Assembly (NCBI GenBank): GCA_008501825.1
Contig: QQUA01000012.1
Location: 62,001 to 126,000 of the forward strand
Direction of reading: 5' to 3'
From: Planctomycetota bacterium
GTDB lineage: Bacteria; Planctomycetota; UBA1135
DNA: 64,000 nt
This document shows positions 6,412-24,819 of this stretch, piece by piece. Position 1 is the first letter of the stretch. The number at the start of each line of letters is the position of its first letter. The notes under the pieces were generated by a model. It had not been told where the DNA came from. It worked only from the letters and a program-made list of their open reading frames with translations, and ran no database searches. The position numbers and the translations under genes were made by a program.

Positions 6412-8285
6412 TAGGGGCGGCGAATAAACCGCCCCGCCCAACTCCTCACCTGACTCCCATTAAGCACGTGAAAATGCCGAATCTGTTCCAAGGAGCGGCT
6501 CTGAAAAGTACTCAAAGGCATATGCAAGATGTGGCGCTTCCGCCTTTCCGCTTCCCGGCGCACTTCCTCCGCTGGAGCCTTATCTGCCAAATGGACCACG
6601 AAAGGATCTTCAGACCAGTAAATGGCGGCTAGCAACAAGCGCTCGGACGGAGTTCGAGCTCGTTCGAATCGAGCGTCCTGCCAGATGTCCGGAAAGGGTT
6701 TGGGGGGATAGACCAGCAAATAACCGCCGTAAAAAGAACGAGCCACGCCCGGACCGATCAATCGTTCGTGGAAGTCTGTCGCATAAAAGGCCAAGGTGGA
6801 TTCGTTGTGATGTTCGGCCAGCCAAGTGCTGCGCCAGGGATAGCGAATGCCGAAATCATCTTCCTCAAAAATCACCACCAATGCACCGACACCGCCGGGA
6901 AGCCTCGGTTCTTCTTTGACGAAAACCCTCCGTTCGACCACGTCCCGCATGCTTTCCCGAAAATCGATACCATCCATCAAGGACGTGCTGAAGGGTTCGA
7001 TTTTTCGGTGCTGGACGCTGGCTAAACTAAGGGCGCGGCGGCCGACGTAATCTCGGAATCCTTCAATGACCACGTCTTCCGGCGGCCACGAACATTGCAC
7101 TCGAGGGTCCCAAGCTTGCTGCCATTGCCGTTGTCGGCGCGCATCAGGTGGGCGTTCCAGTTGCAATCGCCCGTACTCAAACTCCGATCCTGGGGTCCGG
7201 TTCCGCAATTCGAAATCAGCGTCGTCGGTGCGCCCGCGATCGGCGTTCATGGCCAGAAGCGGGTGAACCGGCTGCTCCACTTCTTGGCTGCCGTCCAAGT
7301 CCATTCTTCCATTCCACGGATAGGCGTGTGCCATTTCCAGCAAGCACAAGGCGTAATCGTTGCCAACGACTCCGCGAGCGGCGGTCACCAAGGTATAGCT
7401 GTCCGGAAGTAGCAGCTTGCGCCGCACCGTCATCTTGCGAGCGAAGTCCATCAAAACTCGGAGAGCCTGAGGATGGGCACGTTCCAGACTGCCGCCGAAC
7501 TTTTTCTGGTGCAAGGAGCGAGCTTCCAGCAACAGCGACTTCAAGGCTTGCACCGGATCAAAGGGCTCCAAGGAAATGCCGCGCCGGTGTTGCTCATAAG
7601 CTGCAACCAAATACGGCATGTCGCCCATGATGAAGGGCAAGGATCGCGGTAGCGGTTGCAGGATTTCCGTTTGCGTTGCATCCGGGCCGTCGGCATCCCA
7701 AAGTTCACCTTCGCCCTGAGCAAGAAGGCGGCGGATTTCCAACCAATGAGCCATGCCGGTCAGAAACAAGATCGGTCCTTGAATTTCAGCTTCCAATCGT
7801 CTCAAGGAAGCGGCCATGTGCCGTTCCCGGATTTCGTCTTGGCGGTTCCGCGGGTGGGCTGAAAGGGAAGGCAGACAGCTTTGAAGCCAGGCCTCCAGGC
7901 CCAAACTGTGCAAAGCATGAGGGTCCGGCATGCTGATGCCGCGACTGAGGAAATCCCCGATTTCCGCATCCACAAAGAAAACTGGAATTCGTTCACTCTT
8001 GGCAATGCGAAGCGCTTCCACCATGCCGTCTCCGGGATGCACCGGAACGAAAAAGGCCGGGGCATCCGGCTCCAAGATCGGCAGTTGTTCGCGATAAAGG
8101 ACGGCGCTGGCCACCGGCAGGGCATCCACCGCGTTCAGGACGCCCCTTTCCAAGGACGCCGGCAGTTCCACGGCAACGGCGGCAAAGGATTCGCTTAACA
8201 GCCTTCGGTGGGCTTCCATGGCGAAAGCCAGGCGGCCGTGAATCAGGGGGAGCGCGTGAACGTGGCCTTGCTGAAGCAGGCTCAC
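6411..8285 (-). CDS. TraB/ChaN-like conserved protein, operonic with a MoxR ATPase
   Basis: This 624-residue protein has no signal peptide. Its first ~190 residues resemble the TraB/PrgY/ChaN superfamily: a VAVELPASL strand with E40, a conserved RERHMAASL helix (153-161) and a TGMAH motif (176-180) at the positions where TraB-like proteins keep their conserved Glu, Arg and His. The remaining ~430 residues are not recognised. The start overlaps the stop of the MoxR-type ATPase by ATGA, so the two are translationally coupled. MoxR ATPases usually act as chaperones that assemble or activate partner proteins, so this protein is the likely client or partner. Its C-terminus may have been altered by the adjoining insertion sequence, since its stop codon is formed at the IS edge. 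Confidence 0.6.
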   Translation of the reverse strand: MSLLQQGHVHALPLIHGRLAFAMEAHRRLLSESFAAVAVELPASLERGVLNAVDALPVASAVLYREQLPILEPDAPAFFVPVHPGDGMVEALRIAKSERIPVFFVDAEIGDFLSRGISMPDPHALHSLGLEAWLQSCLPSLSAHPRNRQDEIRERHMAASLRRLEAEIQGPILFLTGMAHWLEIRRLLAQGEGELWDADGPDATQTEILQPLPRSLPFIMGDMPYLVAAYEQHRRGISLEPFDPVQALKSLLLEARSLHQKKFGGSLERAHPQALRVLMDFARKMTVRRKLLLPDSYTLVTAARGVVGNDYALCLLEMAHAYPWNGRMDLDGSQEVEQPVHPLLAMNADRGRTDDADFELRNRTPGSEFEYGRLQLERPPDARRQRQWQQAWDPRVQCSWPPEDVVIEGFRDYVGRRALSLASVQHRKIEPFSTSLMDGIDFRESMRDVVERRVFVKEEPRLPGGVGALVVIFEEDDFGIRYPWRSTWLAEHHNESTLAFYATDFHERLIGPGVARSFYGGYLLVYPPKPFPDIWQDARFERARTPSERLLLAAIYWSEDPFVVHLADKAPAEEVRREAERRKRHILHMPLSTFQSRSLEQIRHFHVLNGSQVRSWAGRFIRRP

Positions 8286-9184
8286 GGTTCTTCGTCCACT
8301 TCGTCTTCCAAAGTGCCGAACAGGCTGCCGAAGTCGATCATATTGTCTTGGATCAAGGCTTCCCGGGAGCGGGTTTCCAAATCCTCGGCGCCTTCACCCA
8401 AAACTTGACTCACGGCTTGGTGGAAAGCCTCTTCGATCGGCGTGCCTTTCACTTTTTCCAATTTCAAAGCAAAGCGCATGATATTGATGCCGTCTCGAGT
8501 GCTGTAATCCAGCCGATAACTGTGGCTTTGTTGCAGGAATTCAGCGCACATGCGCAAGAGATCGTCCGGAGCGAAATTCACGTTGTAGCGCAAAATCGCC
8601 ATTTCTTCTTCCAGGTCCGGATAACCCAAGGCGATCAGCGGCTGGATTCGGCTGAGGATATATTCCGGAATCTCATAGGTGCTGGCATCGTCGTTCATGG
8701 TGATGCAACAGCGAAAGTCGGGATGAGCTTTCAAGCGCACTCCGGCTACCAGTGAATCGACGTAGCGGCGGTGATCCAAAAGCGGAGCCAACGAAGCCCA
8801 AGATTTTTCCGGCATACGGTTGGCTTCATCCAAGATGGCCACCCCGCCTTCCACCATGGCCGAGACCAGGGCCGACGCCCGATATCGAATCTCACCGTTG
8901 GCGGCCAAAACCGGACTGACCACCAAATCTTCCGGCCGGGTATCGGCAGTGCATTGCAAGATGTAAACCGGCTTTTCCAATTCCTGGCCGGCAGCTTGGG
9001 CCAAAGTGGTTTTGCCCATGCCCGGCTTGCCAACCAGGCGCGGACAAAGCGGCAAATCATCGGCGGTCACGCTAGTCCAGCAGGCCAAGATTTGCTCCAC
9101 CAATTCCCATTGCCCGATCCATTGAACCGGAGTTTCCACCGGCTCGACCAGGTCGATATGGACGTCACCGAGATCCAGGCTCAT
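8282..9184 (-). CDS. MoxR-family AAA+ ATPase
   Basis: This 300-residue AAA_5/MoxR-type ATPase has Walker A GKPGMGKT (52-59), Walker B VAILDE (115-120) and a sensor-1 ITMND segment. It is preceded by clpS with a 4-nt gap and followed by the TraB-like gene with a 4-nt overlap, so the three genes probably form one transcript. MoxR proteins commonly sit beside VWA-domain or client genes and help them mature. No VWA gene is present here, which makes the TraB-like protein the best partner candidate. Cytoplasmic. Confidence 0.85.
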   Translation of the reverse strand: MSLDLGDVHIDLVEPVETPVQWIGQWELVEQILACWTSVTADDLPLCPRLVGKPGMGKTTLAQAAGQELEKPVYILQCTADTRPEDLVVSPVLAANGEIRYRASALVSAMVEGGVAILDEANRMPEKSWASLAPLLDHRRYVDSLVAGVRLKAHPDFRCCITMNDDASTYEIPEYILSRIQPLIALGYPDLEEEMAILRYNVNFAPDDLLRMCAEFLQQSHSYRLDYSTRDGINIMRFALKLEKVKGTPIEEAFHQAVSQVLGEGAEDLETRSREALIQDNMIDFGSLFGTLEDEVDEEP

Positions 9185-9188
9185 GGCT

Positions 9189-9518
9189 TCAGTCGTCCAC
9201 CCGTTCCAAAATGGCGGTCATCGAGCCGGAGCATTTGAGGATGCGGGGATCGGCGCCGAATTGGTGAATTTGGTCTTGTTTCAGCTCGGCGGTTTCCCGC
9301 GGCCCGGTGTAGACCGCCGCCCGGCCGGTGGCGTCCACTTCGCAGGCAAGCTCGTATCCGGTCGATTCCGGAACTCCGCAGATCTTCCTAAGCATTTCAA
9401 TTACATACTCATAGGAGTGTTCGTCGTCATCCAGCAGGACCACCTGATAACGGGGGGCCAGGTAGGTCCTAGGGATCACCTGGGGTTCGAGCACAGTGCT
9501 TCCGGTCATCCTCGTCAT
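9189..9518 (-). CDS. clpS: ClpS-like adaptor of the Clp protease
   Basis: This 109-residue protein has the ClpS core VVLLDDDEHSYEYVIEML (26-43), aligning with the NDD substrate-binding loop of E. coli ClpS (here D30-D31-D32), and a C-terminal AELKQDQIHQFG helix. ClpS delivers N-degron substrates to ClpAP/ClpCP. The conserved histidine of the E. coli pocket (H66) appears to be replaced (segment LACEVDATGRA), as I recall in planctomycete ClpS homologues, so substrate choice may differ. It is the first clearly recognisable gene of the clpS-moxR-TraB-like operon. The ATG overlaps the stop of a possible tiny upstream ORF. Confidence 0.8.
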   Translation of the reverse strand: MTRMTGSTVLEPQVIPRTYLAPRYQVVLLDDDEHSYEYVIEMLRKICGVPESTGYELACEVDATGRAAVYTGPRETAELKQDQIHQFGADPRILKCSGSMTAILERVDD

Positions 9519-9694
9519 TTTAGGCAGAGCGGAGCCAAGCCGTCACCTGCGGGGGACGGATCCTGCTTTCCACAAAAGAGGCAAGGACGGCTTAAGACCC
9601 AGGCCTTTGCCGCCGTTGAGGAGGCGGTCCGGCGGTCGATGCTGTAAATGGCCAGTGCGGCCATGGCGTCAACCGTGTCAGAAAGCCCCGCCAT
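9515..9694 (-). CDS. Possible small cysteine-containing protein upstream of clpS
   Basis: This 59-residue ORF overlaps the clpS start by ATGA. Its C-terminus has a C38-x2-C41 pair and C57, suggesting a small metal site or redox pair. The start is taken at the first ATG not overlapping the divergent H-NOX gene. No family is recognised, and the overlap could be chance, so the call is tentative. Confidence 0.3.
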   Translation of the reverse strand: MAGLSDTVDAMAALAIYSIDRRTASSTAAKAWVLSRPCLFCGKQDPSPAGDGLAPLCLK

Positions 9695-9718
9695 TAGGAT
9701 TCCAAACTGCCACAACCC

Positions 9719-10309
9719 ATGAGAGGAATCATCCTTATTGAATTCCTGCAGCAGGTCGAAGCCTTGTACGGTCAAGAAACTGCTGACAGCATCATCGAAT
9801 CCGCTCACCTGCCGTCGGAGGGAATCTACAACCCGGCGGACACCTACGATTTCCGGGAGTTGGTGCTCTTGGTCCGGGAGTTGAGCGCTCGAACCGACTT
9901 CACCGTCCAAGAGCTGCAAACTCGGTTCGGAGGACACTTATTTCAGCGCTTTGCCGAAAGCTTTCCTTACTTTCTGGAAGGAGCGGAAAGTGCTCTCCAT
10001 CTGATCGGCGGCATTCAGGACTTCCTGCGCCAGAAGGTGTTGCGTTACTACCCGGACACCGAAATGCCGGATTTCGATTGCAGTTGGAATGCCAGCGGCG
10101 AACTGGAACTCCTGTTTCGTTCTCCCCGGCCGCTGACCGACGTCGTCCACGGTTTGTTGGCGGGTTGCCTAGAACACTTTCAAGAAGAGATTCAAATTCA
10201 ACGGCGACCCATTTTGCGCGGACATCGGGACGGAGTGCTGTTCAGCTTCAAGCCGAAGTCCACTCGACAATCCCTGGCTTTACCTACTCGGCAATCTGAA
10301 AAGCCCTAA
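9719..10309 (+). CDS. Stand-alone H-NOX (heme NO-binding fold) protein, ligand residues altered
   Basis: The N-terminus MRGIILIEFLQQVEALYG, the ESAHLPSEGIYNPADTYDF segment and the YPDTEMPDF loop identify an H-NOX/HNOB fold (PF07700), 196 residues with a short basic tail. Two hallmark features deviate. The YxSxR heme-propionate motif is F133-x-S135-x-R137. The residue 29 positions upstream, where T. tengcongensis H-NOX has its heme ligand His102, is R104; the nearest histidine is H94. The protein may therefore not bind heme in the canonical way. H-NOX proteins normally sense NO or O2 and signal to kinases or cyclases, but none is adjacent here. It is divergent from the clpS operon, and its 3' end overlaps the convergent membrane-protein gene by 26 bp. 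Confidence 0.75.
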   Translation: MRGIILIEFLQQVEALYGQETADSIIESAHLPSEGIYNPADTYDFRELVLLVRELSARTDFTVQELQTRFGGHLFQRFAESFPYFLEGAESALHLIGGIQDFLRQKVLRYYPDTEMPDFDCSWNASGELELLFRSPRPLTDVVHGLLAGCLEHFQEEIQIQRRPILRGHRDGVLFSFKPKSTRQSLALPTRQSEKP

Positions 10310-13300
10310 GCGGGCGGTCGCTGGAAGCGGCTTCCGGTTCTCCGTAGCCGCCGAGTCGGAAGACGTGCTCGCGGTAGTTGAGGACGTCAATTAAAGACAG
10401 GGTTTGAATGGTTCGAAGAGTGACCAACTGTTCGCTGACCCTTCGGGAATAACGAAGGATTTCCGCGAGGGCTTGCTCGCCCCGGCGTCGGGCTTCCTCC
10501 GGTCCATAGTCCGCCCAAATTTGCAAGGCTCGTTTGCTGCCGTGGAAATCTCTTTGGATCGCCCGCCAAGCGAAAGGCCGGGCTTCCGGCTTGGCTTTGT
10601 CGTATTGCTTCCAAAAGCGATTGAACTTCCCGCCGACTCCGAAGCCGGCGAACCGGGGTTCGAAATGCCGCCGGCCTTCGGCTGCTTCCTGACAGGCTTC
10701 ATGCAAAATCTCGCCGCAGGAGAGCAGGCTTCGGATTCCCTTGAAATCGGCTCGGTAGGCCACCGCTGCGGCTCGAATGGACTCGACGGAAAGACTTTCC
10801 TGCGGGCGGCCCAAGATAGTCGCGATGCGCTGTAACAATCCGTCGGCGAAGAGAGATTCCAGCCGCCTCATGTCGGCGCTGGCGGAAGCCCGCTCCTCGG
10901 TCAATCTTTCGTACCAACTCGGTTCCGCATCCAGGAAACGCAGATCCGCCATCACGTCTCGTCCGCTCCAATCGGGATCGGGGGTGCGAGGAATTTGTAC
11001 GCCCAAATATTCCGGATCGAAGCGAGCCCGCAACCACAAGCAAGCTTCCACCACCGGCCCTCGCATGCGATTGATCTTGCGCTGGGCGGCGGCGAAATCG
11101 GCTTGCGCCGCGTCAGTCGGTTTGCCGAAACGTTTGGGTTTGCGAATTTCCTGAACCGCCTTGGCGACCAAGACCACCAGCCTTCCAAACAGGCGCAGGC
11201 CGAAGATGAGGAAGAAAAAGGGCATGAACAAGGCCCGCCCGCCGGCCAGCCAAGATTGATACATCTCATAGGGATTGAGCGTGCGCCGGTCTTTGGGCCG
11301 ATGATGCACCGGAAAGGTTCCGAAGATGGTTCGGAACAACCTTTGCCGATCTTCTTGAACCCGCTGCAGGACGGCTTCGCCGAATTCTTCCGCCACGTCC
11401 TGGTCCCGGACCTTGTCGTCGTCCAAAAAGTGCAACGCCGTAAAAGCGGTGGTCAGATAGTGCGATCTTTCCTCCCGCATCGCTTTTTCGCTGCGGTTTT
11501 CCTCCGGCTCAGGATTTCTTCTTTCCAGCCACGCCTGATAGCGACGCCGGTCGGTTTCCGGCGCTTGGGATAAGGCGTTGAGCGGAATCGCATTGCGATT
11601 GTATTCGACAATCAAACGTGCGGCGGTCTGCGCGATAGCTTTCGAAATCAGGCTGAACCACAAATAGGGACCTTTAAAAGCGCCGCGCTGTTGGTCCAAA
11701 TCCAATAAATTCAGCGCTCGATTTTCCTTTCGATCGATGCGGGAAGAAATGTCACGCAAGTGGCAAAGGGCCAGATTTCCCAATAACTGATCGGTGGTTC
11801 GAGTGTCGGTTTGACACAGCAAGGAGCCTTTTAAGGAATCGCGATAGAGCAGGATGACCCGCTCCATGGCTTCCGTTTCCCGGAGGGCTTCCTCACTTTC
11901 CCGCGCACCCAAAAGCCAGGCTCGAACGCCGGCTTTGAACGGCCTCCGGCGGTCATCCGCTCCGCCGGGTCGGGAGCGATCGACCAGCAGATCTTCCGGT
12001 TCCAAAATCCGGCGATCTAAAATTTCGGTATCCCGTTCCAGATTGCGGCTTTTGATGGCTTCGGTAAATGGTAAATACTGAGCTTCCGCAGTTTGTTCCA
12101 AAAAGGAAGTGGCCTCTTTGGCCATTTTTTTCATCCACCACCCTAAACCGAGAATGATGAAGCAAACGCCTCCGACCAAGATCAAGGTCGGCCCGACATA
12201 TTTGTCCAGGAAGTCGGCGATTTTCTGCATCAGGCCCAGCCCTGAAATCTCCAAAATCAAGTGAGCCAGCAGATAAATTCCGCCAAACAAGGTCAAGCGG
12301 TACGCCGGGCGAAAGGAGCCTTTCACCATGGCGGAACCCACCCGGTCCACGACTTCCGAGGGGGTAATGGTGCCGTACCAATCCAAAATCCAGAACATGC
12401 GACCGTAGTAACGCTGCAAACTGGCTGCGCTGCGACGGGCGGCGGCGGCGACCACCTCGGAAGCCCTCATTCCCGGCGATAATCGCGGCAGGAAGGCTTT
12501 GACCATGGGGAGCCACCGCAGGGGAACTACGTGGAACATGCGCAGAATTTTGGCGGCTTTGCCCACTTGGTCCGGTCCGAGCTGTTCTTCGATCCGGTCC
12601 GGACTGAGGCTTCCCAGGCGCCTTAGGAATTCTTCGGCAGTCCATTCGCTCGGAAGTTTTGGGCCTGCCGACTCGTGGAAATCGGCGTCGCCGAGCAAAG
12701 CGTGGCTGCTACGCAAGCTATGCAGGCGCGCTTTCGACAATTGCTTTCTTTGTTGCGGCGTTCCTTCCTGATAGAGCCGTTGCCAAAGATCGTTCAGTTC
12801 GCTGCGCAAGCGCCACAATCGGCTCTGCCACTCTTCCGCAGCCCGATCGACGCCGGCTCGTTCCCGGCGATTCGGGTACAGGATGATGCTGCTGTTCAGC
12901 AGATTCCCATAGCGGCGAACTATGCGGTCGAGGCCCTTGGCGAGAAAGCCGAAGGCTCGAATCGCTCGAATGACCGGCATCATCAAACGCAGATAACGGG
13001 CGACCCGCGGCAACCGGAACAAACGGGCGGCCCGGCCGGCTCGAGCCGGATCGGCGCCGGCATGATGCAGGAAGAGGTTGAAAGGCAGCGATGGTAAAAA
13101 GTCGACCAGGAAATGGCGTAGAAACCAACTTCGCCGGTGCTCCACCAAAGCTAGTTTGAAACCGAAGTCAATCAAAAAAAGCGTGCAAGCGAAGGTATCG
13201 ACAATGGTGAGAAAAAGACGCCAATTCGGAGATAAGGGGACCGTCATTTCCACGATCAGAATCACCAGGACGACCAAAATCAAAAGGAGAATCATCCGCT

Positions 13301-14048
13301 CCCAATGACCCATCGCCCTGGTTCCGAAACGTGTTTCCAGCTTGGCTTGCAAGCGCCGTTCTTGGCGCTCCGCCCGCAAGCGCCGGAGCTTTCGAGTCAA
13401 TCGATGCGCCCTTGGACCTTCCTTTTCAATGTTTTGCCGGTGCCAGCGCAAGTCGCTTGAAACCACGTCCAGGCACCGGGCGGCTTCTTTCGGCGACATA
13501 TCGTCCAGCGCGGTCAAGCTGGAGTCTGCCCGGTCCATTAATTCCGCCAACCAGAGGTCCCGCAATTCCTCCTCCGGCGGCGAGGCCTTGATGGCCGAAA
13601 GCAAGGCTTCCCGCAGGCGGCGGCGATCTTGGTGGAAGGGGCTTTGCTCTTCCGGTTGCCGCAGATCGCTACGGGTCATCAAGCTGAGGATTTGAAACAG
13701 GGTGGGAGCGTCTTTTTGCTGCTCCGCCTGGATTCCCCGCCGGCGCCAGCGCTTTCCTTCCTCTGCTTGGAGTTCCTTCAAAAAGGCGCCGGTGGCTTGG
13801 GAAGCTTCTTCCAAGCCGTCGTTTTCCAATACGGTTTGCCAGGCGATGGCCTGGGCCTGGACCCGCCGTCCGGCATCTCCGCTTTCCCCCGGCCGCCGGA
13901 ATTTGGCATGAAGAGCTTCCAGCCGCTTTTCGCTGCTTTGCAGCAGATCGACCTGGCTCTCCCAAGGAAGTTCGCCCGCCCGCAGCCGCCTAAGCCTCTG
14001 CTCGAGACGATCGATAGGATTCCGTCGAGTTTGCTGGGCCGGGTCCAC
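10284..14048 (-). CDS. Giant membrane protein with voltage-sensor-like S1-S4 domain
   Basis: 1254 residues. Residues 1-245 are charged, helical and probably cytoplasmic. Residues 251-366 look like an Ion_trans S1-S4 bundle: S1 at 251-270, S2 at 277-302 with acidic D284 and D294, S3 at 308-325, and an S4-like helix with arginines at exactly every third position (R336, R339, R342, R345, R348, R351, R354), then R361 and R364. No channel selectivity-filter motif (TVGYG-like) follows. Further membrane helices lie near 584-604, 617-638 and 938-962, separated by long charged soluble regions. A voltage sensor without a pore would be reminiscent of Hv1 or voltage-sensing phosphatases, but no enzymatic domain is recognised. 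The stop overlaps the convergent H-NOX gene. Function unknown. Confidence 0.6.
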   Translation of the reverse strand: MDPAQQTRRNPIDRLEQRLRRLRAGELPWESQVDLLQSSEKRLEALHAKFRRPGESGDAGRRVQAQAIAWQTVLENDGLEEASQATGAFLKELQAEEGKRWRRRGIQAEQQKDAPTLFQILSLMTRSDLRQPEEQSPFHQDRRRLREALLSAIKASPPEEELRDLWLAELMDRADSSLTALDDMSPKEAARCLDVVSSDLRWHRQNIEKEGPRAHRLTRKLRRLRAERQERRLQAKLETRFGTRAMGHWERMILLLILVVLVILIVEMTVPLSPNWRLFLTIVDTFACTLFLIDFGFKLALVEHRRSWFLRHFLVDFLPSLPFNLFLHHAGADPARAGRAARLFRLPRVARYLRLMMPVIRAIRAFGFLAKGLDRIVRRYGNLLNSSIILYPNRRERAGVDRAAEEWQSRLWRLRSELNDLWQRLYQEGTPQQRKQLSKARLHSLRSSHALLGDADFHESAGPKLPSEWTAEEFLRRLGSLSPDRIEEQLGPDQVGKAAKILRMFHVVPLRWLPMVKAFLPRLSPGMRASEVVAAAARRSAASLQRYYGRMFWILDWYGTITPSEVVDRVGSAMVKGSFRPAYRLTLFGGIYLLAHLILEISGLGLMQKIADFLDKYVGPTLILVGGVCFIILGLGWWMKKMAKEATSFLEQTAEAQYLPFTEAIKSRNLERDTEILDRRILEPEDLLVDRSRPGGADDRRRPFKAGVRAWLLGARESEEALRETEAMERVILLYRDSLKGSLLCQTDTRTTDQLLGNLALCHLRDISSRIDRKENRALNLLDLDQQRGAFKGPYLWFSLISKAIAQTAARLIVEYNRNAIPLNALSQAPETDRRRYQAWLERRNPEPEENRSEKAMREERSHYLTTAFTALHFLDDDKVRDQDVAEEFGEAVLQRVQEDRQRLFRTIFGTFPVHHRPKDRRTLNPYEMYQSWLAGGRALFMPFFFLIFGLRLFGRLVVLVAKAVQEIRKPKRFGKPTDAAQADFAAAQRKINRMRGPVVEACLWLRARFDPEYLGVQIPRTPDPDWSGRDVMADLRFLDAEPSWYERLTEERASASADMRRLESLFADGLLQRIATILGRPQESLSVESIRAAAVAYRADFKGIRSLLSCGEILHEACQEAAEGRRHFEPRFAGFGVGGKFNRFWKQYDKAKPEARPFAWRAIQRDFHGSKRALQIWADYGPEEARRRGEQALAEILRYSRRVSEQLVTLRTIQTLSLIDVLNYREHVFRLGGYGEPEAASSDRPLRAFQIAE

Positions 14049-14179
14049 GTTTGGGGGGCACCGGCCGCGGTCCCTTCCGCCGGCCGGTGGCCTCTATTCT
14101 GCCGTGGCCTTCGCTATGCGTCCGCCCTTGCTTTCTTGCTTCTTTTTTGGCTTACCGGACTTGCTTGAGAGTCGGGGGA

Positions 14180-14209
14180 TAAAAAAGAAGGGCGCCGGTT
14201 AGGCGCCCT
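14180..14209 (-). terminator. Rho-independent terminator of the selenoprotein gene
   Basis: An 8-bp perfect stem (AGGGCGCC/GGCGCCCT, 14189-14196 with 14202-14209) with a 5-nt loop is followed on the minus strand by TTCTTTTTT. It lies 19 bases after the selenoprotein stop codon and is the best-formed terminator in the window. Confidence 0.85.
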
Positions 14210-14227
14210 CCCGGCCGACCCATTCGC

Positions 14228-15328
14228 TTACGGCTTGTCCGCCGGGTGAAGCATGCCCTCCACCAGTTCTTTGGCGACTTCCGTGGCCTTCTCACCGTTG
14301 TGGCCGCGATAGCGGATTTTCCTTTCGGCATCCAGCACCACGATGGTGGGCCAACCTCGAACTTTCCAGTCGTCGGCGATGGCCTTTTTCGAACCTTCCG
14401 GCTGGTTCTGAAAGCTTCTCCAATTCAATTCGTTCTCCTTCACTGCCTTGAGGGCGTTCTCCAAAGGATCGCTGTTCACTCCAATCAAGGCGAAAGGCTT
14501 ATCTTTCATTTCAATCACGAGCGACCGCTCGTGCGGGTACATGGCCCGGCAAGGGCCTCACCAATCGCCCCAAAAATCAAGGAAGACGACTTTGCCATGG
14601 TAGTCGGACAGTTTGAAGGCAACGCCGTCCAAATCGATGCCTTCGATGTCCGGAGCCACTTTGCCCACGGCGAATTCTTCCCGCACCAGGATTTCATCGC
14701 GGATGCTTCGATTGATGCTGCGATCGTTGGCTTTTTCGATCAAAGCCATCATGGCTTTGCGGGCTTCTTGATACTTTGCCGATTGAATGGGTTCGTCCCG
14801 CAAGGTGTCTCCCAAAAGCACGTAAGTCGCCCAAGTTTTTACCTTGATCGACGGCGTTGCCTGCTCCAACTTGGCGGCCAGTTGCGTCGCCTTTTCCTTA
14901 TCCAAGTAATAAACCAGATTCGGAAGCATGGAGGCGAGCTCAACCAACCCGGGACTGGCCAAATGGTTTTGCTCAATTCTTTCCAAGGCGAGGGAGCCTT
15001 CCGGCGCACGCCGTGGTAGCCCGTTTTTCACCAGCCAAACGAGGAACGGCACCGCGTCCTCCGTTTCCGCGAAATCGTCGGCGGCGGAAAGGAAGCGTTT
15101 GTAAAAGGGAGAGTAATCTAAAACCGGCTGGTTCGGAGGCCTTTCACCGGTTTCTTCCGCTTCTTTACTCCAGGCTCGAATTTCTTTGACCCACGCTTGG
15201 TAGGTTTCGGAAGCTTCCTGAACCAGGCGGTCGTACCGGGCTTGGGCCGGCGATACCTCGCTTTTCGGAGGCTCCTGAGCCTGCTGGGGGGTTGCCAAGC
15301 ATGGCAACAAGAGGAGGAGGGCTTTCAT
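14228..15328 (-). CDS. Secreted TlpA/ResA-like thioredoxin-fold selenoprotein (WUGPC active site)
   Basis: Reading through one in-frame TGA (14560-14558) gives a single 366-residue protein. It has a signal peptide (MKALLLLLPCLATPQQA), a helical region (about 25-215) and a C-terminal AhpC/TSA-Redoxin or TlpA-type domain (225-366) with APDIEGIDLDG, VVFLDFWGDW, then U257-G258-P259-C260, and the cis-proline segment GWPTIVVLD. The UGA replaces the first Cys of a WCGPC motif, the classic Cys/Sec exchange site. Downstream codons keep full thioredoxin-fold similarity, so a stop or pseudogene is unlikely. A perfect hairpin with a GGUC loop lies 31 nt after the UGA, fitting a bacterial SECIS. Likely an extracytoplasmic thiol/selenol oxidoreductase. 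It is followed by its own terminator. Conventional gene callers would split it into 14558-15328 and 14228-14542. Confidence 0.85.
14516..14533 (-). other. Putative bacterial SECIS hairpin
   Basis: On the minus strand CACGAGC-GGTC-GCTCGTG forms a perfect 7-bp stem with a GGUC loop inside the coding region. The loop starts 31 nt after the UGA, within the 16-37 nt window known for bacterial SECIS elements. GGUC is also the apical motif of the E. coli fdhF SECIS read by SelB. Confidence 0.75.
14558..14560 (-). other. Predicted selenocysteine UGA codon
   Basis: In-frame TGA between TGG (Trp256) and GGC-CCT-TGC (Gly-Pro-Cys), at the first catalytic position of a thioredoxin active site. A 5-bp GGCCC/GGGCC hairpin starts immediately after it, followed by the SECIS-like hairpin. 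Confidence 0.8.
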
Positions 15329-15353
15329 GAGGCATTCATCCTAAAGAAAGAAA

Positions 15354-16559
15354 TTAGCCGTGGCGATTTCCTTTGAGGTGTCTCAACAGGCTATGGATGC
15401 CGGCCTGCAAGATCGGGTCGGCGCCCTGTTGAAACCGGCGAGCGGCCCGGACTTCGACTTCCGGTTGCACGCCCTGGCCTTCCAGGAGCTTGGTGTGTTT
15501 GCCGAGGGTGGTGGAAGGGAACATGAGGACCGCCTTTCGGCCGACCGGCCGGAAGGTGGCCGGAATGACGGCTCCGGCGGTGGGCTCCCCGACCAGCCAG
15601 CCGATTTGCCGCTGCTGAATCTCATAGGAGAGGACTTCCTTGGCGCTGCGGCTGAATTGGTCGACCAAAGCGATCATCGGCTTGTCCCAAACGTCGCGGC
15701 GGCCATCGAAGACGTTGAGAATCCGGTAGACCTCGGCGGCGCTTCCGCCTCGTCCGCGCAAATCCAGGATCAGGGCATCACATTGGGCAAAGTCTCCGGC
15801 GATCAACTCCCGCAGCAGTTTGGACAGGCCGCTGAAGTGGATGAACCAAAAATGCACGTAACCGAAGCGGTGCCGATCCGTCTCCAATATTTGAACGCTG
15901 GCCCGAGTCGCTTCTACTGCCGAATACCATTTCGGGGCAACCGGGATGTAGAGGAATAGCCCCGGACTGCGTTCCACCAGCATGTACAAGAAACTTTGGC
16001 CCGGACAAAGCACGTCGTGGATCGGAGGATCCGGAAGCCAGGCGTCATCGGAGCGCCAATCGAGCAATGGGCTGTTTTCCGGTGCTTCTCCGTTCAGGCG
16101 GACCACCCGGTCGCCGGTGAGCAAACCGGCTTGCTCCGCCGGGCCTCCTTCCAGAGCCGTGTGGACGAAAAAATCCTCGCCGAGGCGGACCAGTTGAAAG
16201 CCGTAGGTGAGGCGAGCTTCGCCTTGTAATTCGGCCAGCATGGTTTCATAGGTGGCTTCCGAATACAGGGCCAAATGGCTGGCAGGTACGTGGGAAAGGA
16301 ATTCGTGAATGACGCTCCGCTCTTCAGCCAAACTGCGGCTGGCTTGGGCTTGGGGCCGGTACTTTTGAACCAGAGTTTGGAGGTCGTTGCGGCGGAAGTT
16401 CCGGTCGTAGTAATCCTCCTGCAAGACTTCGGAGACTTCCTCGAACAGCTCTCCGGCCTTCTGGCCGGCGGCCGGAGTGGAGAGTCCAGCCAGGATCGAA
16501 GTGGCAAACAGGCCGAAGAGGAAAGCGTGAAACGGAGAACGGGTAGGCACGGATTCCAT
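15354..16559 (-). CDS. Secreted S41-family C-terminal-processing-type protease
   Basis: The ATG at 16559 gives 401 residues with a signal peptide ending near AAG (30-32). A PDZ-like region (117-160; GGPAEQAGLLTGDRVVRLNG) precedes the S41 peptidase domain with ALILDLRGRGGS (262-273) and a probable nucleophile S305 in SRSAKE. The Lys of the Tsp Ser-Lys dyad (usually GKG after GEPT) is not evident: GEPTAGAVIP is found instead, suggesting a tricorn/CtpB-like variant or altered catalysis. Exported, probably trimming or degrading periplasmic proteins. It lies 25 nt upstream of the selenoprotein gene on the same strand, so the two may be co-transcribed. Confidence 0.8.
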   Translation of the reverse strand: MESVPTRSPFHAFLFGLFATSILAGLSTPAAGQKAGELFEEVSEVLQEDYYDRNFRRNDLQTLVQKYRPQAQASRSLAEERSVIHEFLSHVPASHLALYSEATYETMLAELQGEARLTYGFQLVRLGEDFFVHTALEGGPAEQAGLLTGDRVVRLNGEAPENSPLLDWRSDDAWLPDPPIHDVLCPGQSFLYMLVERSPGLFLYIPVAPKWYSAVEATRASVQILETDRHRFGYVHFWFIHFSGLSKLLRELIAGDFAQCDALILDLRGRGGSAAEVYRILNVFDGRRDVWDKPMIALVDQFSRSAKEVLSYEIQQRQIGWLVGEPTAGAVIPATFRPVGRKAVLMFPSTTLGKHTKLLEGQGVQPEVEVRAARRFQQGADPILQAGIHSLLRHLKGNRHG

Positions 16560-16595
16560 TCGAAGACTGCCGGCCGCCGTTGGCAAAGATTCAAG

Positions 16596-16627
16596 GAAGC
16601 CCTCGCCGAAAGATCGGAGAGGGCTTC
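16596..16627 (-). terminator. Terminator-like hairpin after the YugP-type gene
   Basis: GAAGCCCTC (16596-16604) pairs with GAGGGCTTC (16619-16627), and the inner CCGA/TCGG pairs around an AAGA loop, with one mismatch. It lies just downstream of the minus-strand protease stop. The following U-tract is weak. Confidence 0.5.
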
Positions 16628-16649
16628 TAAGTGCTTTGTTTAAGGTTCT

Positions 16650-17360
16650 TTACTCGTTTCGACCGCCGAATAGGCCGAGGGCGTAGGCCCAGTACAGCAG
16701 AGTCAAAAGCGAGGAGACAAAAGCCGCCACGTAGGTCATGCCGGCGGCGTTGAGCACCTTGCGGGCACCGCCTAGTTCATCGGGAGTGAGATATCCACCC
16801 GATTCCAGGGCCACAAGGGCTCGGCGACTGGCGTCGAATTCCACCGGCAGCGTGATCAGGGTGAAGATCGTGGTGGTGGCGAACAGAGCGACTCCCACCC
16901 AGGCCACCGGCGTGCCGATTGCCGACCCGATCGACATCAGGATGAAGGCGGCGATGATGATCAGCATGGAAAGCCCGGAGCCAAAACTGGCCACCGGCAC
17001 CCATGCCGAGCGGAATTTCAGCGGTGCGTAGGCTTGGGCGTGTTGAATGGCGTGGCCCACTTCGTGGGCGGCAACGCCGAAAGCTGCCAGACTACGTCCT
17101 CCGTAAACCGGCTCACTCAAGCGCAGGGTCTTGTTTCGTGGATCGTAGTGGTCGGTCAAATTGCCCCGGACCGGCTGCACTTGAACGTCGTAAATGCCGT
17201 TATCGCGGAGGATGCGCTGGGCAACCTCGGCGCCGCTCATGCCGCGCCGGGTATTCACCTTTTGGTACCTGGCAAAGGTCCCCTTGACCTTGGCGCTGGC
17301 CCACAGGCTCAGAACCATGCCCACGCCGAGGATCATCCAGTAAAGCGGGTCGTAGATCAT
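16650..17360 (-). CDS. YugP-type neutral zinc metallopeptidase, membrane bound
   Basis: 236 residues matching the PF04298 (Zn_peptidase_2/YugP) family in length and layout: an N-terminal membrane helix (7-22), HEVGH at 99-103 as the zinc-binding motif inside AAHEVGHAIQH, and paired membrane helices near 125-165 and 205-230. The family is a conserved inner-membrane protease of poorly known substrate. It is separated from the S41 gene by a hairpin, so the two are probably independent transcripts. Confidence 0.85.
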   Translation of the reverse strand: MIYDPLYWMILGVGMVLSLWASAKVKGTFARYQKVNTRRGMSGAEVAQRILRDNGIYDVQVQPVRGNLTDHYDPRNKTLRLSEPVYGGRSLAAFGVAAHEVGHAIQHAQAYAPLKFRSAWVPVASFGSGLSMLIIIAAFILMSIGSAIGTPVAWVGVALFATTTIFTLITLPVEFDASRRALVALESGGYLTPDELGGARKVLNAAGMTYVAAFVSSLLTLLYWAYALGLFGGRNE

Positions 17361-17574
17361 CTTGGATTCGCAAGGATGTCGGATGCGAGGCCCTCCTTAC
17401 GGCGTCGCTCCGGATTTCTGCACGAAATCTTATTAGGAAAAGGTGCCGGCGTCTTCAAATCCCCGGAACTTCCAGGAAGCCGGGGGGACCGCGGGACCGG
17501 AGCGGGAGGGCGTCCCTCCCCAAAAACCGGTCTTGGTTGCCTATGATCGGTTGGCTCGTTCCGCCACTTACGCC

Positions 17575-18876
17575 ATGACCACCCGCCGCCAATTTCTGGG
17601 AGCCCTGAGCCTGGCCCCGTCCGCCATGGCCGCCCCGCCCAGCCTCCGAGCCGACGCGCCTCTGAACCTTGCCGAGCTGGGTGCGACCGACAAGAGTCCG
17701 CAGGCCTTGGCCGGCGATGAGGATTTCTGGCACCAGATCGGCTTGCAGTTCACCTGCGATCGCAGCATGGTGAATTTGAATAACGGTGGCGTCAGCCCGG
17801 CACCGCTATTCGTCCAGTTGGCCATGAAGAAGCACCTGGACTTTTCCAATCAGGCTCCGCCTTATCACATGTGGAGAATCCTGCAGCCCCACAAGGAAGG
17901 AGTTCGCCAGCGTTTGGCCCACGCTCATGGCGTGGACCCGGAAGAAATTGCCTTAACTCGCAATGCTTCCGAGAGCTTGATGATTTGTCAATTCGGAATG
18001 GATTTGAAGGACGGAGATGAAGTTTTGACCACCAACCAGGATTACCCGCGGATGGTCAATACCTTCAAACAAAGGCAAGCTCGGGAAGGAATCCGCCTCA
18101 AGCAGTTTTCGGTCCCGGTGCCTATCGACGAGACTGAGAAAATCGTCGACCTATTCGAGGCTCAGATTCGTCCGGGAAAAACCAAGATGATCCTGTGCTC
18201 TCATATGATTAATTTGACCGGGCAAATTTTGCCGGTCAAGGAAATCTCCGCCTTGGGTCGAAAGTACGGCATTCCGGTCATTATCGACGGCGCTCATTCC
18301 TTTGCTCATTTCGATTTCAAGTTGGCGGATCTGGAATGCGATTTCTTTGCCACCAGCTTGCACAAATGGCTCTTCGCTCCTCATGGCACCGGTTTGCTGT
18401 ATATGCGCAAGGAACGGATCCCGGAAGTTTGGCCGTTGATGGCGGCGGCGGAAAAACAAAAGAACGACATTCGTAAGTTCGAGGAAATCGGCACCCACCC
18501 TTTGGCCAACTACCTTGCCATTTCCGAAGCGTTGACCTTCCATCAGGGCATCGGCGGCAAGCGGAAGGAAGCCAGATTGATCTACTTGCGGGACTACTGG
18601 GCCAAGGCTTTGTTGCAGGAAGATCGAGTGCGGCTGCACACTAGCTTGAAGCCGGGTTGGGCTTGTGGAATTGCCAACGTTCAAATTGAAGGCCTCCATT
18701 CCGGAAAACTGGCGTCTTGGCTGTGGAAGCACTACCGCATCCTGGTCACCGCCATTCACCACGACGAGTTCCAAGGCCTTCGAATTTCGCCCAGCGTCTA
18801 CACCAAACTCTCGGAATTGGATCGCTTCATCGACGCCGTGCGGGTGGCCATTCGCTCCGGGATCGAAGAAGACTAG
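17575..18876 (+). CDS. Tat-exported class V PLP-dependent aminotransferase (isopenicillin N epimerase-like)
   Basis: The ATG at 17575 gives 433 residues starting with a twin-arginine signal (TTRRQFLGALSLAPSAMA). The fold-type I domain has D238 and H241 (IIDGAHSFAHFD) contacting PLP and the Schiff-base K264 in SLHKWLFAPHGTG. The sequence resembles isopenicillin N epimerase/cysteine desulfurase-like proteins exported by Planctomycetota. The substrate is unknown. An upstream in-frame extension exists but would place the Tat motif internally, so it is rejected. Confidence 0.8.
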   Translation: MTTRRQFLGALSLAPSAMAAPPSLRADAPLNLAELGATDKSPQALAGDEDFWHQIGLQFTCDRSMVNLNNGGVSPAPLFVQLAMKKHLDFSNQAPPYHMWRILQPHKEGVRQRLAHAHGVDPEEIALTRNASESLMICQFGMDLKDGDEVLTTNQDYPRMVNTFKQRQAREGIRLKQFSVPVPIDETEKIVDLFEAQIRPGKTKMILCSHMINLTGQILPVKEISALGRKYGIPVIIDGAHSFAHFDFKLADLECDFFATSLHKWLFAPHGTGLLYMRKERIPEVWPLMAAAEKQKNDIRKFEEIGTHPLANYLAISEALTFHQGIGGKRKEARLIYLRDYWAKALLQEDRVRLHTSLKPGWACGIANVQIEGLHSGKLASWLWKHYRILVTAIHHDEFQGLRISPSVYTKLSELDRFIDAVRVAIRSGIEED

Positions 18877-19026
18877 TCCTAAGTCCTGGCTGTTCCGTCA
18901 ATTGGCTTCGAGTCGAACGAACTCGTGGTTCTGTTTAAGGCATTTCAAGGCGGGACCAAATCTCCTGGATTCGAAATCTGAGATTTTTTGCAACGCCGTG
19001 GCCTGGATCCCGCTTGGAAAAAGGCC

Positions 19027-19992
19027 ATGATTCGAGCCTCGAACCTCAAAATTCAGATCCTTCTTCTTACCGCAGTTCTCCTGTCCGGCACTGGGCTCCA
19101 GGCGATGGCCCAGCAGCATCGAGGAGGCAAGCGATCGTCCGGCTCCTGTGGATGTGGCCGGGTTTCCGCTCTCAGCGTCTCTTCGAGGGATGGATCATGG
19201 CGAAAGCTCCTCACCGTGAAGGAGAAAAGCAAAATTGAAATCGCTGCCGAAGGGAAAGTCTGGCACGACAAAAATCGGATGGCCTCGATCCAGAATTTTT
19301 TCGTGGACCTTGGGAAGGACGTAGTCGGGCAGGTGGTCAGTTATTATTGCCCGCTTTGCGGCGTCGGAGTCGGCTTGCTGGATATGACTCATCCAAATTT
19401 CTTGCACGTGAAGGGATTGGACAAGTTAAGCGACGCCTATGGCGAAGATCCGAGACGCTGGCAACCGGGGCAAAGTTGGGATGGTGATGATCGCACCGGG
19501 TCAAAGAAAGTCGGTGGCCTTCTGCTATCCATGGGAAAACCCGGCGCTCGACGAGGATCTTGCCCGTGTTCGGCCAACAACGTATATCATTTGGTTCGAA
19601 ATGGTCGCCGGCGGTTTGCCGAATACGCCAAGCATCACCGGTTCATTACGCCAGCCCAACTTAGTGCGGGAGTATTCGGTCCGGGAACTTTATACGTCAA
19701 TAGTTGGGATAAGGATTTTTCCGACAACCAAGGGGATTACGGAGTCGCCGCCAGGGTCATCCGAGATTCGGTGGTCGCTCGCGGATTGAACGCTCCTCCT
19801 CCTTCCTCGGCCTCCAGGGAGAATGCCCGACCGTCTCCGCAGCCGGAAAAGAAATCCAAGGCTAGTAAGGGGAAAAAGAAGAATCGAAAAGAGTCGAAAT
19901 CCAAACGGAAAAAGGGCAACAACCGCAAGAAGAACGGGAAGAAAGGAAAAGGCTCCAAAAAGGGAAAGGGGGGGCAGGGGAAGAACCTTTAA
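19027..19992 (+). CDS. Secreted PA-IL (LecA)-like protein with lysine-rich tail
   Basis: The ATG at 19027 gives 321 residues with a signal peptide (MIRASNLKIQILLLTAVLLS). After a short Cys-Gly stretch (C41, C43), residues 58-250 have PA-IL-like features: a KEKSKIEIAAEG strand, VGGLLLSMG (162-170) and GTLYVNSWDKDFSDNQGDYG (220-239), comparable to the calcium/galactose-binding LYxxxND...DNxG region. The middle holds an insertion with C108/C111 (YYCPLCG) and C179/C181. Residues 265-321 are a low-complexity tail dominated by Lys, Gly, Ser and Asn, likely to bind polyanions or the cell surface. Lectin function is inferred, not proven. Confidence 0.6.
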   Translation: MIRASNLKIQILLLTAVLLSGTGLQAMAQQHRGGKRSSGSCGCGRVSALSVSSRDGSWRKLLTVKEKSKIEIAAEGKVWHDKNRMASIQNFFVDLGKDVVGQVVSYYCPLCGVGVGLLDMTHPNFLHVKGLDKLSDAYGEDPRRWQPGQSWDGDDRTGSKKVGGLLLSMGKPGARRGSCPCSANNVYHLVRNGRRRFAEYAKHHRFITPAQLSAGVFGPGTLYVNSWDKDFSDNQGDYGVAARVIRDSVVARGLNAPPPSSASRENARPSPQPEKKSKASKGKKKNRKESKSKRKKGNNRKKNGKKGKGSKKGKGGQGKNL

Positions 19993-19996
19993 GGAT

Positions 19997-20446
19997 TCAA
20001 TCCCGGGCGAACAAGCGAGACGGATCTTTGAAGGATTTGAATTCGAGGGCGTTGCCGCTCGGGTCCATGAAAAAGACCGTGGCCTGTTCGCCGGCTTGTC
20101 CCTGAAAGCGAATGCGGGGGCCGACCAGGAAGTGAACTTGATGTTCCTTTAAACGCTCGACTAGATCGTGCCAGCGAGACCATTCCAAAACCAGGCCGAA
20201 GTGGGGGACCGGGACGGCGTCGCCGTCGACCGGATTCCAAGCCTTCGGTGCCTGTTCCCTGGAGGCGAGGTGAGCCACGATCTGGTGGCCGTGCAAGTCG
20301 AAATCCACCCAACGATCGCTACTGCGCCCTTCCGAGCATCCTAGGACCTTGCCATAAAATTCCCGGGCTTCCTGCAGATCATGAACCGGGAAGGCCAGGT
20401 GAAAAGGCGTTTGGCTCGGGTAGGCTTCGGATTCGGGAGCGCTCAT
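19997..20446 (-). CDS. VOC-superfamily (glyoxalase/dioxygenase-like) protein
   Basis: The ATG at 20446 gives 149 residues. The paired beta-alpha-beta-beta-beta layout is clear: [20 protein letters not shown] at the N-terminus and [17 protein letters not shown] at the C-terminus. H15 of the first segment, H of VPHFGLV and E of ALEFK are the usual metal ligands. The family includes glyoxalase I, extradiol dioxygenases and antibiotic-binding proteins; specificity cannot be told. Convergent with the PA-IL-like gene, with 4 nt between the two genes. Confidence 0.8.
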
Positions 20447-20560
20447 GACTGTGGCCAAGTTCGCGGACGGAGGGGAAGGAAAAGGGAGTTTCTAGAATAG
20501 CCGCAGAAGATGGCTAAGAAAGATTGATCACCGGCGTTTCTGGATGCAGGAACCCGCTTC

Positions 20561-23044
20561 ATGACCAGGACCCCACCCCTCCGCTGGCTGCCACTTTGGT
20601 TATTGGTCGTGGCCGTCTTGATCGGCCTGGTTTGGCTGCCTTGGGGAACGTCGACTGCAGCCGGTTCGGAGGGATCGGATCCATCTGAAGCCCCTTTGGG
20701 GGATATGAGTTTCGCGCCGGAAACGGAAGGCGAGGAAACGGGCCACAGGGACGGTGATGGCCAGGAAAGAGTGGATTTTGAACCGGCCCCTCTTCCTCCA
20801 AAACAAGACGCGGACGAGTTGTCCCAAGAGGAATCCAAGGTATGGATCGGCCTGGTGGATCGGCGCAATCGTCCCGTCTTCCAAAGCGAGGTTTGGCTGG
20901 ACGGCCGAATTCAGGGGCTGACCGATCGGGAGGGGAGGTTCCCCTTTCCAAGTTCCGCGATTCAAGGCGACCGCGTTCATTCCCTGACCTTTCGGGCTCC
21001 CGATTTTTTGATCGAGACTTATCGCTGGCAAGGAGAAGAGCGCTGGTTCACCCTGCGTCCCGGTCGAACCGCCCATTGGCAGGTGCAATGGCAAGACCAG
21101 CTTGACCAAGAGGACGAAAAACCGCTCGGCGATCTCATGCTCGAGCTTCGTTTGGCCGCCGGTGGCGCGGACGGCCATTTGTTTTGGTCCGGTCGTACCG
21201 ACCAGGAAGGGCGAGCGACCATGCCGGCCTTAAGTCAATCGACTTCGGTGCTCATCACCGTCGGCAGCCAAAGCGGCGTTCTTTATCGAGGTCGATCGCC
21301 CATGATTCGGCTCAGCCACGGCGGGCCCGATTGGGAGCCGGCATATCAAGCGCAATTCCCAATTGTTTTGCCGAACACCCAGGGGGACCGGGAATTCGAC
21401 CTTCAAGTGTTCGACCCGGAAGGCCGCCCCTTGGCCGGCGGATTTCTTTTTGGCGAAGGTCCTTTCGAAGATCGCCATCATTTTCCCTTTGATCCGCAAG
21501 GGCAAGCTTCGATCACCGCCTTTTTGCAAGGAGAAGTGCAGATTTACGATCGGCAGCATCGTTGCCTGTGGCGGGGAGCGGTGCCTAGAGATTTGCCTGA
21601 CCGAACTTGGATTTTGCGGTTGCAAGAGGGTTCCGTCAGCGGCTTTCTGCGAACTCCCGCCGGGGAGAGTCCGCAGGATTACGTCGTGACTTTAGCCACC
21701 GGCTACGTATGGCCGGGAAGCCGTGAATTTAAAGATTTGGAATCCTTGCCGCTGCAGCATCCAGGGCCCCAGGCTTGGGTTTCTCCAGGCGAGGACGGGG
21801 CTTTCCATTTGCCCTGGATTTTGGATTCGGATGGAGATTTGGATGGCGAGCTCTTGGTTCGCCATCAAACTTCCGGATTGCTGGTCCAGCAAGCATCACT
21901 GGAAGATTGGAGCGGCGAGGTTTTGGTTCCGGGAATGTGTCAGATCGATTTGACGATCAGCGATTCGATTTGGCAACGAGGGTGGCTGTTCTTTTTTGCC
22001 GCCGGACCGATCCGAAGTTACTCCAAACCGAAAGCGGTTTTTCCCTTGCAAAACGGTCACCTTCAAGCTTGGCTTCCCCGAGGGGAATATCAATTGCAAT
22101 GGCGGGCTTCCGCCAAGAGCCACGGCCTGGATTTAGGCCGACACGAATTTCTTAGCGCATCGACGAAAAAGAAGCTCACTTTCCCGGAAGGAAGGTATTT
22201 CGCCGGAAAGGTGCGAGTGGACGGAATGCCCTTTTCCGGAGCCAAACTTGTCGCGATTCATCCTGACGGCAAGCATGGAAAAATTTCAGCTCAAGCCTGG
22301 AGCGATGCCGAGGGAAGCTACCGATTAGGGCCGGTTCCAGAAGCGGAAAGCTACGAGATCCATCTCAGTTTGAGAGACGTGCCTGGATATTGGATGCCGT
22401 CTCGGGACATGATCATGATTCAAACCCGAGCGAACGAAGCGGAAGTGGATTTTGAAGTGCAAACCGGTCAACTTCGCCTGGAATTGAATCCGGATACGGC
22501 GGATCGTCTCCAATTCCTGGAGCTTTGGAATTTGGATAGTGGGCGGAGTGCGGGGCAACGCTCCTGGCAAGAAATCTCTCTTCTCGGCAACTTTCGCCTG
22601 CCGCCGGGCCGCTATCGCATTCAAGGAAAAGGGCAAGGATTGCGAATTCCGCCCCTTGACTTTTCGATATCCGCGGCAGAAATCAATCATTTAAAGCTCG
22701 TTTCGGAACCGGTTGGATCCTTGTTGCTTAGCCAGGCCGGCATGCCGAAAGGGCTGAGTTACGGTTGGTATCAGGCGGAAATCGAATGGATCCCTGGTGC
22801 CAGCGTGCCCAGCACCGTTTCTCGGAAGCCCTTTGTCCGCCGCCATCAAATTGCCAATGAGTTTTTTCTGCATCCTGGGCTCTGGACCGTGGTGATCCGT
22901 TTCCCGAAAAAGGACCGGGAGTTCCTTTGGCGGGGTGAGGTGGAATTGAGGCCGGGGCAATCCTTATTCCTGAAATGGGATTGGCAAGATGAAGATTTGG
23001 TGGTGGTGGACCGGCGCTACGCTTCCTTCAGTTCGTGGCCATAG
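20561..23044 (+). CDS. Large exported protein with carboxypeptidase-regulatory-like repeats
   Basis: 827 residues with a single N-terminal membrane anchor (LPLWLLVVAVLIGLVWLP) followed by an acidic Ser/Glu linker. The rest is a series of beta-rich modules of the carboxypeptidase-regulatory/CNA-B type, recognised by repeats such as GLVDRRNRPVFQSEVWLDG, DPEGRPLAGGFLFGEG and AGKVRVDGMPFSGAKLVAIH. No catalytic motif is seen. Probably anchored on the outside of the cytoplasmic membrane. The downstream phosphatase starts 65 nt later on the same strand, so they may be co-transcribed. Confidence 0.6.
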   Translation: MTRTPPLRWLPLWLLVVAVLIGLVWLPWGTSTAAGSEGSDPSEAPLGDMSFAPETEGEETGHRDGDGQERVDFEPAPLPPKQDADELSQEESKVWIGLVDRRNRPVFQSEVWLDGRIQGLTDREGRFPFPSSAIQGDRVHSLTFRAPDFLIETYRWQGEERWFTLRPGRTAHWQVQWQDQLDQEDEKPLGDLMLELRLAAGGADGHLFWSGRTDQEGRATMPALSQSTSVLITVGSQSGVLYRGRSPMIRLSHGGPDWEPAYQAQFPIVLPNTQGDREFDLQVFDPEGRPLAGGFLFGEGPFEDRHHFPFDPQGQASITAFLQGEVQIYDRQHRCLWRGAVPRDLPDRTWILRLQEGSVSGFLRTPAGESPQDYVVTLATGYVWPGSREFKDLESLPLQHPGPQAWVSPGEDGAFHLPWILDSDGDLDGELLVRHQTSGLLVQQASLEDWSGEVLVPGMCQIDLTISDSIWQRGWLFFFAAGPIRSYSKPKAVFPLQNGHLQAWLPRGEYQLQWRASAKSHGLDLGRHEFLSASTKKKLTFPEGRYFAGKVRVDGMPFSGAKLVAIHPDGKHGKISAQAWSDAEGSYRLGPVPEAESYEIHLSLRDVPGYWMPSRDMIMIQTRANEAEVDFEVQTGQLRLELNPDTADRLQFLELWNLDSGRSAGQRSWQEISLLGNFRLPPGRYRIQGKGQGLRIPPLDFSISAAEINHLKLVSEPVGSLLLSQAGMPKGLSYGWYQAEIEWIPGASVPSTVSRKPFVRRHQIANEFFLHPGLWTVVIRFPKKDREFLWRGEVELRPGQSLFLKWDWQDEDLVVVDRRYASFSSWP

Positions 23045-24813: not shown

Positions 24814-24819
24814 TGGGCC

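Follow-up and report, generated by a model that had tools for sequence, protein, structure and literature searches.

The stretch of DNA analysed here (64,000 nt, hereafter the window) corresponds to C18:62001-126000 of a draft genome of 5.72 Mb in 26 contigs, estimated to be 84% complete. On its minus strand, from 15328 to 14228, translation gives a single frame of 366 residues when one TGA is counted as a residue, while the ordinary code splits the same region into two ORFs of 256 and 104 aa. The initial annotation had located the gene at 14228-15328 and had expected standard annotation to miss or split it; the unbroken full-length frame and the two ordinary-code ORFs agree with this, the strand, which had been omitted, being minus. 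The 366-residue protein displays near-full-length homology to proteins in other genomes. The features of the locus are as follows:

14228..15328, minus strand: predicted selenoprotein gene, 366 residues plus TAA (start ATG at 15328; stop TAA at 14230-14228)
15263..15328, minus strand: hydrophobic N-terminus, probable export signal, about residues 1-22 (sequence and hydropathy)
14669..15262, minus strand: predicted N-terminal alpha-helical domain, about residues 23-220 (AlphaFold model, block mean pLDDT 54-94 for residues 21-220)
14252..14668, minus strand: TlpA/ResA-like thioredoxin-fold domain, about residues 221-359 (PF00578 at 221-340, PF08534 at 221-349; PDB 2lrn match to residue 358)
14558..14560, minus strand: in-frame UGA, predicted selenocysteine (Sec) 257 of W-U-G-P-C (TGA in 112/126 aligned rows)
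14516..14533, minus strand: putative SECIS hairpin, 7-bp CACGAGC/GCTCGTG stem with GGUC loop (loop 31 nt after the UGA)
14186..14212, minus strand: terminator-like hairpin, 11 pairs, 5-nt loop, T-rich tail (consensus match only)

The last of these, a stem at 14212-14186 that matches the consensus only, is in line with the terminator earlier proposed after the full frame. Upstream on the same strand (window 15354-17360) occur a PDZ/S41 peptidase-like gene and a Zn_peptidase_2 gene that are not common to the relatives. When the ORFs of 34 related loci, with flanks of mostly 1.5 kb, were compared to those of window positions 5001-25000, matches were found over the gene itself only; since no neighbour gene is common to the window and the 34 relatives, genomic context is uninformative on function. 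A flanking ORF shared by 7 of the 34 relatives (L041, L049, L051, L052 and three more) is absent beside the window gene.

Residues 221-349 of the product match the Pfam families AhpC-TSA (best), Redoxin and Thioredoxin_8, and its solved relatives in the PDB are thiol-disulfide interchange proteins, ResA and TlpA, as anticipated by the initial annotation, which had described a TlpA-like fold. A WCxxC-type motif with a Pro-containing strand further on is typical of TlpA/ResA-like oxidoreductases; here WUGPC is followed by GWPT, whose Pro we take to be the cis-Pro of the thioredoxin fold. The best NCBIfam model was that of ResA (NF002854), with 63.1 bits where 170 are required; NF041054 (WAxxUGC_long) scored 30.9 bits against a cut-off of 300, and none of the 14 models listed reached its cut-off. 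The long helical N-terminal domain also claimed earlier is found in an AlphaFold model built from a two-sequence alignment, in which nine helices occur and residues 27-220 are predicted to be helical. The thioredoxin domain is poor in this model (block pLDDT about 29-51), and a Foldseek search of the model against the PDB gave 0 matches at E <= 0.001; because of the poor two-sequence model and the Foldseek result, the N-terminal fold is described here as helical only. According to hydropathy, the relatives displayed also have a hydrophobic N-terminus.

Only one TGA lies in the frame, at residue 257, in the context DFWGDW-U-GPC, where it stands for the first Cys of the W-C-G-P-C thioredoxin motif. 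A profile alignment combined the 30 top-ranking loci of the order with L026, 40 stretches chosen from lower ranks, 14 phylum-search loci (some of them genes already included), 20 further picked stretches and the hits of the genome itself. Among its 126 rows, the residue-257 column contains TGA in 112, a Cys codon in 13 and GTG in 1. Two of the TGA rows (L020 and L024) are other proteins of the same genome and were excluded from the family counts, leaving 110, and among the 13 Cys rows, eight (L022, L023, L027-L032) represent remote thioredoxin-like proteins. A domain tree of 116 sequences, 13 of them with Cys, had very low support at some nodes. One family member (L130 346-357, genome G437) carries TGA at both motif positions, as U-R-T-U.

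The sequence that follows the UGA is homologous in 34/34 relatives compared, with 69-82% identity over 99-106 residues in the six displayed, and the N-terminal part is less conserved (37-51% in the same six). Over the 30 codons downstream of the UGA, the mean change amounts to 17.1 identical, 9.5 synonymous and 3.5 non-synonymous codons. This is the pattern of bacterial selenoproteins, in which homology continues beyond an in-frame UGA that replaces a redox-active Cys. The initial annotation had reported a single TGA at the first Cys of WCGPC with the fold unbroken after it, had called for homologues to be aligned at residue 257 and had named unrelated sequence after the UGA as evidence to the contrary; the frame translation, the column counts and the 34 relatives all agree with its reading. 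Across the 64-kb window, 48 TGA codons are flanked by at least 80 open codons on either side, and our scan found a UxxC/CxxU neighbour together with a SECIS-like hairpin only at 14560. Another window TGA, at 52495 on the plus strand, lies between open stretches of 303 and 275 codons and has a short hairpin; it is followed by a sub-threshold DUF5065 match alone, and the region possibly represents two consecutive frames.

The putative SECIS hairpin is composed of CACGAGC (14533-14527), the loop GGTC (14526-14523) and GCTCGTG (14522-14516), its stem starting 24 nt and its loop 31 nt after the UGA. A perfect 7-bp stem with a GGUC loop had been placed 31 nt downstream in the initial annotation; the hairpin stands, and so does the distance for the loop, but not for the stem. 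Limits for bacterial SECIS elements, as given in the accessible text of a 2026 catalogue (PMC13188914), are a loop of 3-9 nt located 16-37 nt after the UGA, a stem of 4-16 bp, a G in the first two loop positions and an energy of at most -7.5 kcal/mol. With a loop of 4, a stem of 7, GG and 31 nt, the window hairpin falls within these published limits, as had been supposed. A 66-nt region containing this and a second hairpin folds at -25.1 kcal/mol (z -2.59), 5 of 200 shuffles being equal or better. The SECIS of E. coli fdhF likewise has a GGUC loop and a short stem after the UGA, but its loop is located 18 nt after the UGA, compared to 31 in the window, and its stem is different.

In order to count the hairpin across homologues, the 110 family TGA rows were reduced to 100 distinct sequences over 75 nt. 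The GGTC loop is found in 97 of these and all 7 pairs in 87, with 10 more in which the outermost pair alone is lost without compensation; L100, L127 and L133 (3/100) have no hairpin of the window type. The codons in the hairpin are nearly frozen (Arg CGG 97/97, Ser TCG 97/97, Leu CTC 91/92, His CAC 98%, Glu GAG 94%). For comparison, at five well-conserved positions outside it with four or six synonymous codons (Pro +21, Ala +23, Leu +24, Gly +26 and Ser +29), the commonest codon accounts for 38-56%. Uniform usage is also seen at some two-fold residues elsewhere (for instance Cys TGC 99%, Phe TTC 95%), so that codon bias may explain part of the freezing. None of the 13 Cys rows has a GGTC loop at the hairpin position or an intact 7-pair hairpin, 2 to 6 pairs being formed (6 in L117). 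The exact pattern of UGA, spacing and hairpin occurs in 91/154 genomes of the order, as compared to 0/154 in a backwards control. Taken as evidence on the RNA, these patterns argue that the downstream hairpin is under selection as such.

In six rows from one family of genomes, pair 6 has changed from G-C to A-U by means of CTC to TTC (Leu to Phe) and a silent GAG to GAA; L076 has a G-U intermediate at this pair, and pair 1 has become A-U in L062. Both-sided pair changes amount to 8, the shuffle mean being 0.57 and the maximum 4 in 2000, a test that overstates their independence because the rows are related by descent; six of the eight are the single pair-6 change in one family and one lies in the hairpin-less L133. 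An interpretation in which the protein gives way to the RNA at this point, Leu being exchanged for Phe to keep the pair, was rejected: in L076 (p 1617) the Phe codon coexists with a G-U pair, which indicates that the silent Glu change may be the second step.

The genome also encodes the full Sec set expected of a selenoprotein producer, all four components that the initial annotation had proposed to look for being present. SelB is found above cut-off on contig C17, and SelA (C22:462182-463549, 434 bits), SelD (C22:461191-462114, 314.6 bits) and tRNA-Sec (C22:460788-460880, 74.2 bits, anticodon tca, in agreement with ARAGORN) are encoded consecutively on one strand of C22 within 2.8 kb (L137 5785-8550). 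The selD gene itself has one in-frame TGA (ACSG-U-AAK), which we take to be the usual Sec place of SelD. In the order, SelB occurs above cut-off in 139/154 genomes and in 52/53 of those with at least 90% completeness and at most 5% contamination. The 15 genomes with no SelB match, 13 of which have a match to the protein, are mostly poor drafts, one being 90% complete.

Two explanations would dispense with selenocysteine. The UGA could be a mutated or miscalled Cys codon in a frame that is dead or ordinary, a single substitution being enough to turn TGC or TGT into TGA and Cys homologues being known; however, 110 family rows, drawn from many assemblies, have TGA at this position and the change downstream is mostly silent. 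A pseudogene or sequencing error was therefore rejected, as far as sequence can do so, given that TGA recurs across homologues with a conserved hairpin, and we give it next to no weight. Genome-wide reassignment of UGA to Trp, Gly or Cys would read the frame alike and would accommodate the in-frame TGA of several other genes of the genome, but TGA also terminates many family frames in relatives, the hairpin after the UGA is conserved, and SelA, SelB, tRNA-Sec and a SelD with U in ACSGUAAK are all present. On these grounds recoding was rejected as well, as exceedingly improbable. Decoding of the UGA as Sec is as certain as sequence allows.

Two others accept Sec and differ on what it serves. 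Selenium is well suited to peroxide reduction, and the best Pfam model is AhpC-TSA, both of which would suit a protein acting mainly as a thiol peroxidase or other redox enzyme and not as a disulfide reductase; on the other side, the motif W-[CU]-G-P-C is that of TlpA/ResA and not the TxxC/U of peroxiredoxins, and ResA/TlpA/DsbE-like proteins rank at the top in NCBIfam and the PDB, which makes this reading unlikely. Less likely still is a selenium switch, with a truncated 256-residue helical protein made at low selenium and the full enzyme when selenium is plentiful: read-through is seldom complete in known systems and the helical domain could be stable alone, but the N-terminal part is the less conserved one (37-51% against 69-82% in the six relatives displayed). 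In our assessment, an exported TlpA/ResA-like oxidoreductase is the best candidate function, and we consider, with high though not full confidence, that the gene product is a single exported TlpA/ResA-like thiol-disulfide oxidoreductase containing selenocysteine. What appears as a stop-broken gene very probably yields one whole exported redox protein with selenium at its predicted active site.

For such an oxidoreductase, established knowledge suggests that SelB on the hairpin would deliver Sec-tRNA to the UGA and that the chain would be exported out of the cytoplasm. By analogy with the thioredoxin mechanism, Sec257 would attack a disulfide or other oxidised group of an extracytoplasmic substrate and Cys260 would resolve the mixed selenosulfide, while the helical N-terminal domain probably positions the enzyme or binds the substrate. 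As to the direction of the reaction, reduction is a guess, made because Sec occupies the attacking position of W-U-G-P-C.

The same genome contains six further redox genes in which an in-frame TGA is accompanied by a hairpin passing a loose scan: L136 on C6 (RTWUGPC), L140 on C1 (FRHUGGC), L141 on C15 (ASTURPC), L150 on C15 (TPGUTRQ, of peroxiredoxin type), L151 on C15 (YATUPTC, SelL-related) and L152 on C19 (SYTUPPF). The candidate selenoprotein genes of the genome, SelD included, number 8, and PF00578 has 22 matches, 7 with TGA, one of these below cut-off. Hairpin spacing varies among the UGA genes of the genome; in that of C1 a distance of 40 nt separates the UGA from the GGUC loop, past the usual 37. 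The UGA gene of L152 (C19:59000-60800) is deiodinase-like (PF00837 92.5 bits; NF038285 185.5 bits, below the cut-off of 250), with EF-hand matches preceding the deiodinase-like part and a hairpin CAGCC-GGTC-GGCTG whose loop is located 21 nt after the UGA.

Matches to the protein at E <= 1e-20 were found in 131/154 genomes of the order, with up to five per genome, and every order match among the matches listed contains at least one internal TGA; the class search covered 154 genomes, with the same handles as the order search. A draw across the phylum gave matches in 103/392 genomes, with at least six stop-free rows among the matches listed; in the six listed, the U position is occupied by Cys in five and by Val in one (L118). 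The 383-residue protein of L026 and that of L043 (genome G092, same order) agree at both ends. In each of L068, L076, L077, L080, L083 and L084, two neighbouring TGA family rows occur, which suggests local duplication. As judged from these searches, the family has a wide distribution in both the order and the phylum (Planctomycetota) and is no rarity of this genome.

The window protein resembles the extracytoplasmic oxidoreductases TlpA, ResA and DsbE in its thioredoxin fold, its W-x-x-C type of motif and its best NCBIfam and PDB matches, but differs by having Sec in place of the first Cys and a helical N-terminal domain of about 200 residues, and it scores far below the cut-off of the ResA model (63.1 vs 170). 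NF041054, the "ResA-like WAxxUGC motif-containing protein", is also ResA-like with a U in its motif name, its motif being UGC where that of the window protein is UGPC. The accessible text of the 2026 catalogue lists predicted UxxC selenoproteins named "thiol-disulfide isomerase-like" (cd02966), "redoxin family" (PF08534) and "Prx-like" (PF00578) (PMC13188914), which have the same motif and fold class; the window family was compared with their descriptions alone, and words starting with Planctomyc- are absent from the main text. As far as the accessible parts of these papers go, UxxC proteins of the thioredoxin fold class also occur in an earlier catalogue (PMC9312934), many UxxC Trx-like and Prx-like selenoproteins were found in Global Ocean Sampling data (PMC2398784), and among three algal planctomycetes selenoproteins were reported in two, with Sec machinery in Gemmata and Isosphaera (PMC4807772). 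The words Planctomyc-, TlpA, redoxin and thioredoxin are absent from the deep-Sep paper (PMC12013277). No description of the family was found in the literature searched, a body that excludes supplements and most subscription journals, and the motif letters UGPC returned unrelated titles only, among the matches listed. The selenoprotein had been called unusual in the initial annotation, a view that cannot be kept for a widespread family of a known kind: Sec UxxC redoxins were already known, and the window family is new at most as a family of that kind.

Since the ordinary code lists the gene as two ORFs, a family present in 131/154 genomes of the order could be missed or split. The frozen hairpin offers a natural test of SECIS constraint on the codons that it overlaps. 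With two heme-copper oxidase matches and several candidate Sec redox genes in its genome, the bacterium also adds a case that runs against the statement, in the accessible text of the 2026 catalogue, that aerobic bacteria rarely retain selenoproteins (PMC13188914); many Sec users had already been found among aerobes in a 2016 survey, according to its accessible part (PMC5029168). Finally, we put forward a broader proposal, to which we assign an even chance: exported Sec thiol oxidoreductases, phylum-wide, often in multiple copies and without an NCBIfam model, may run much of the extracytoplasmic thiol chemistry of oxygen-respiring Planctomycetota, and may have spread by duplication as a coding block with a near letter-identical SECIS, so that protein and RNA signal would evolve as a unit.
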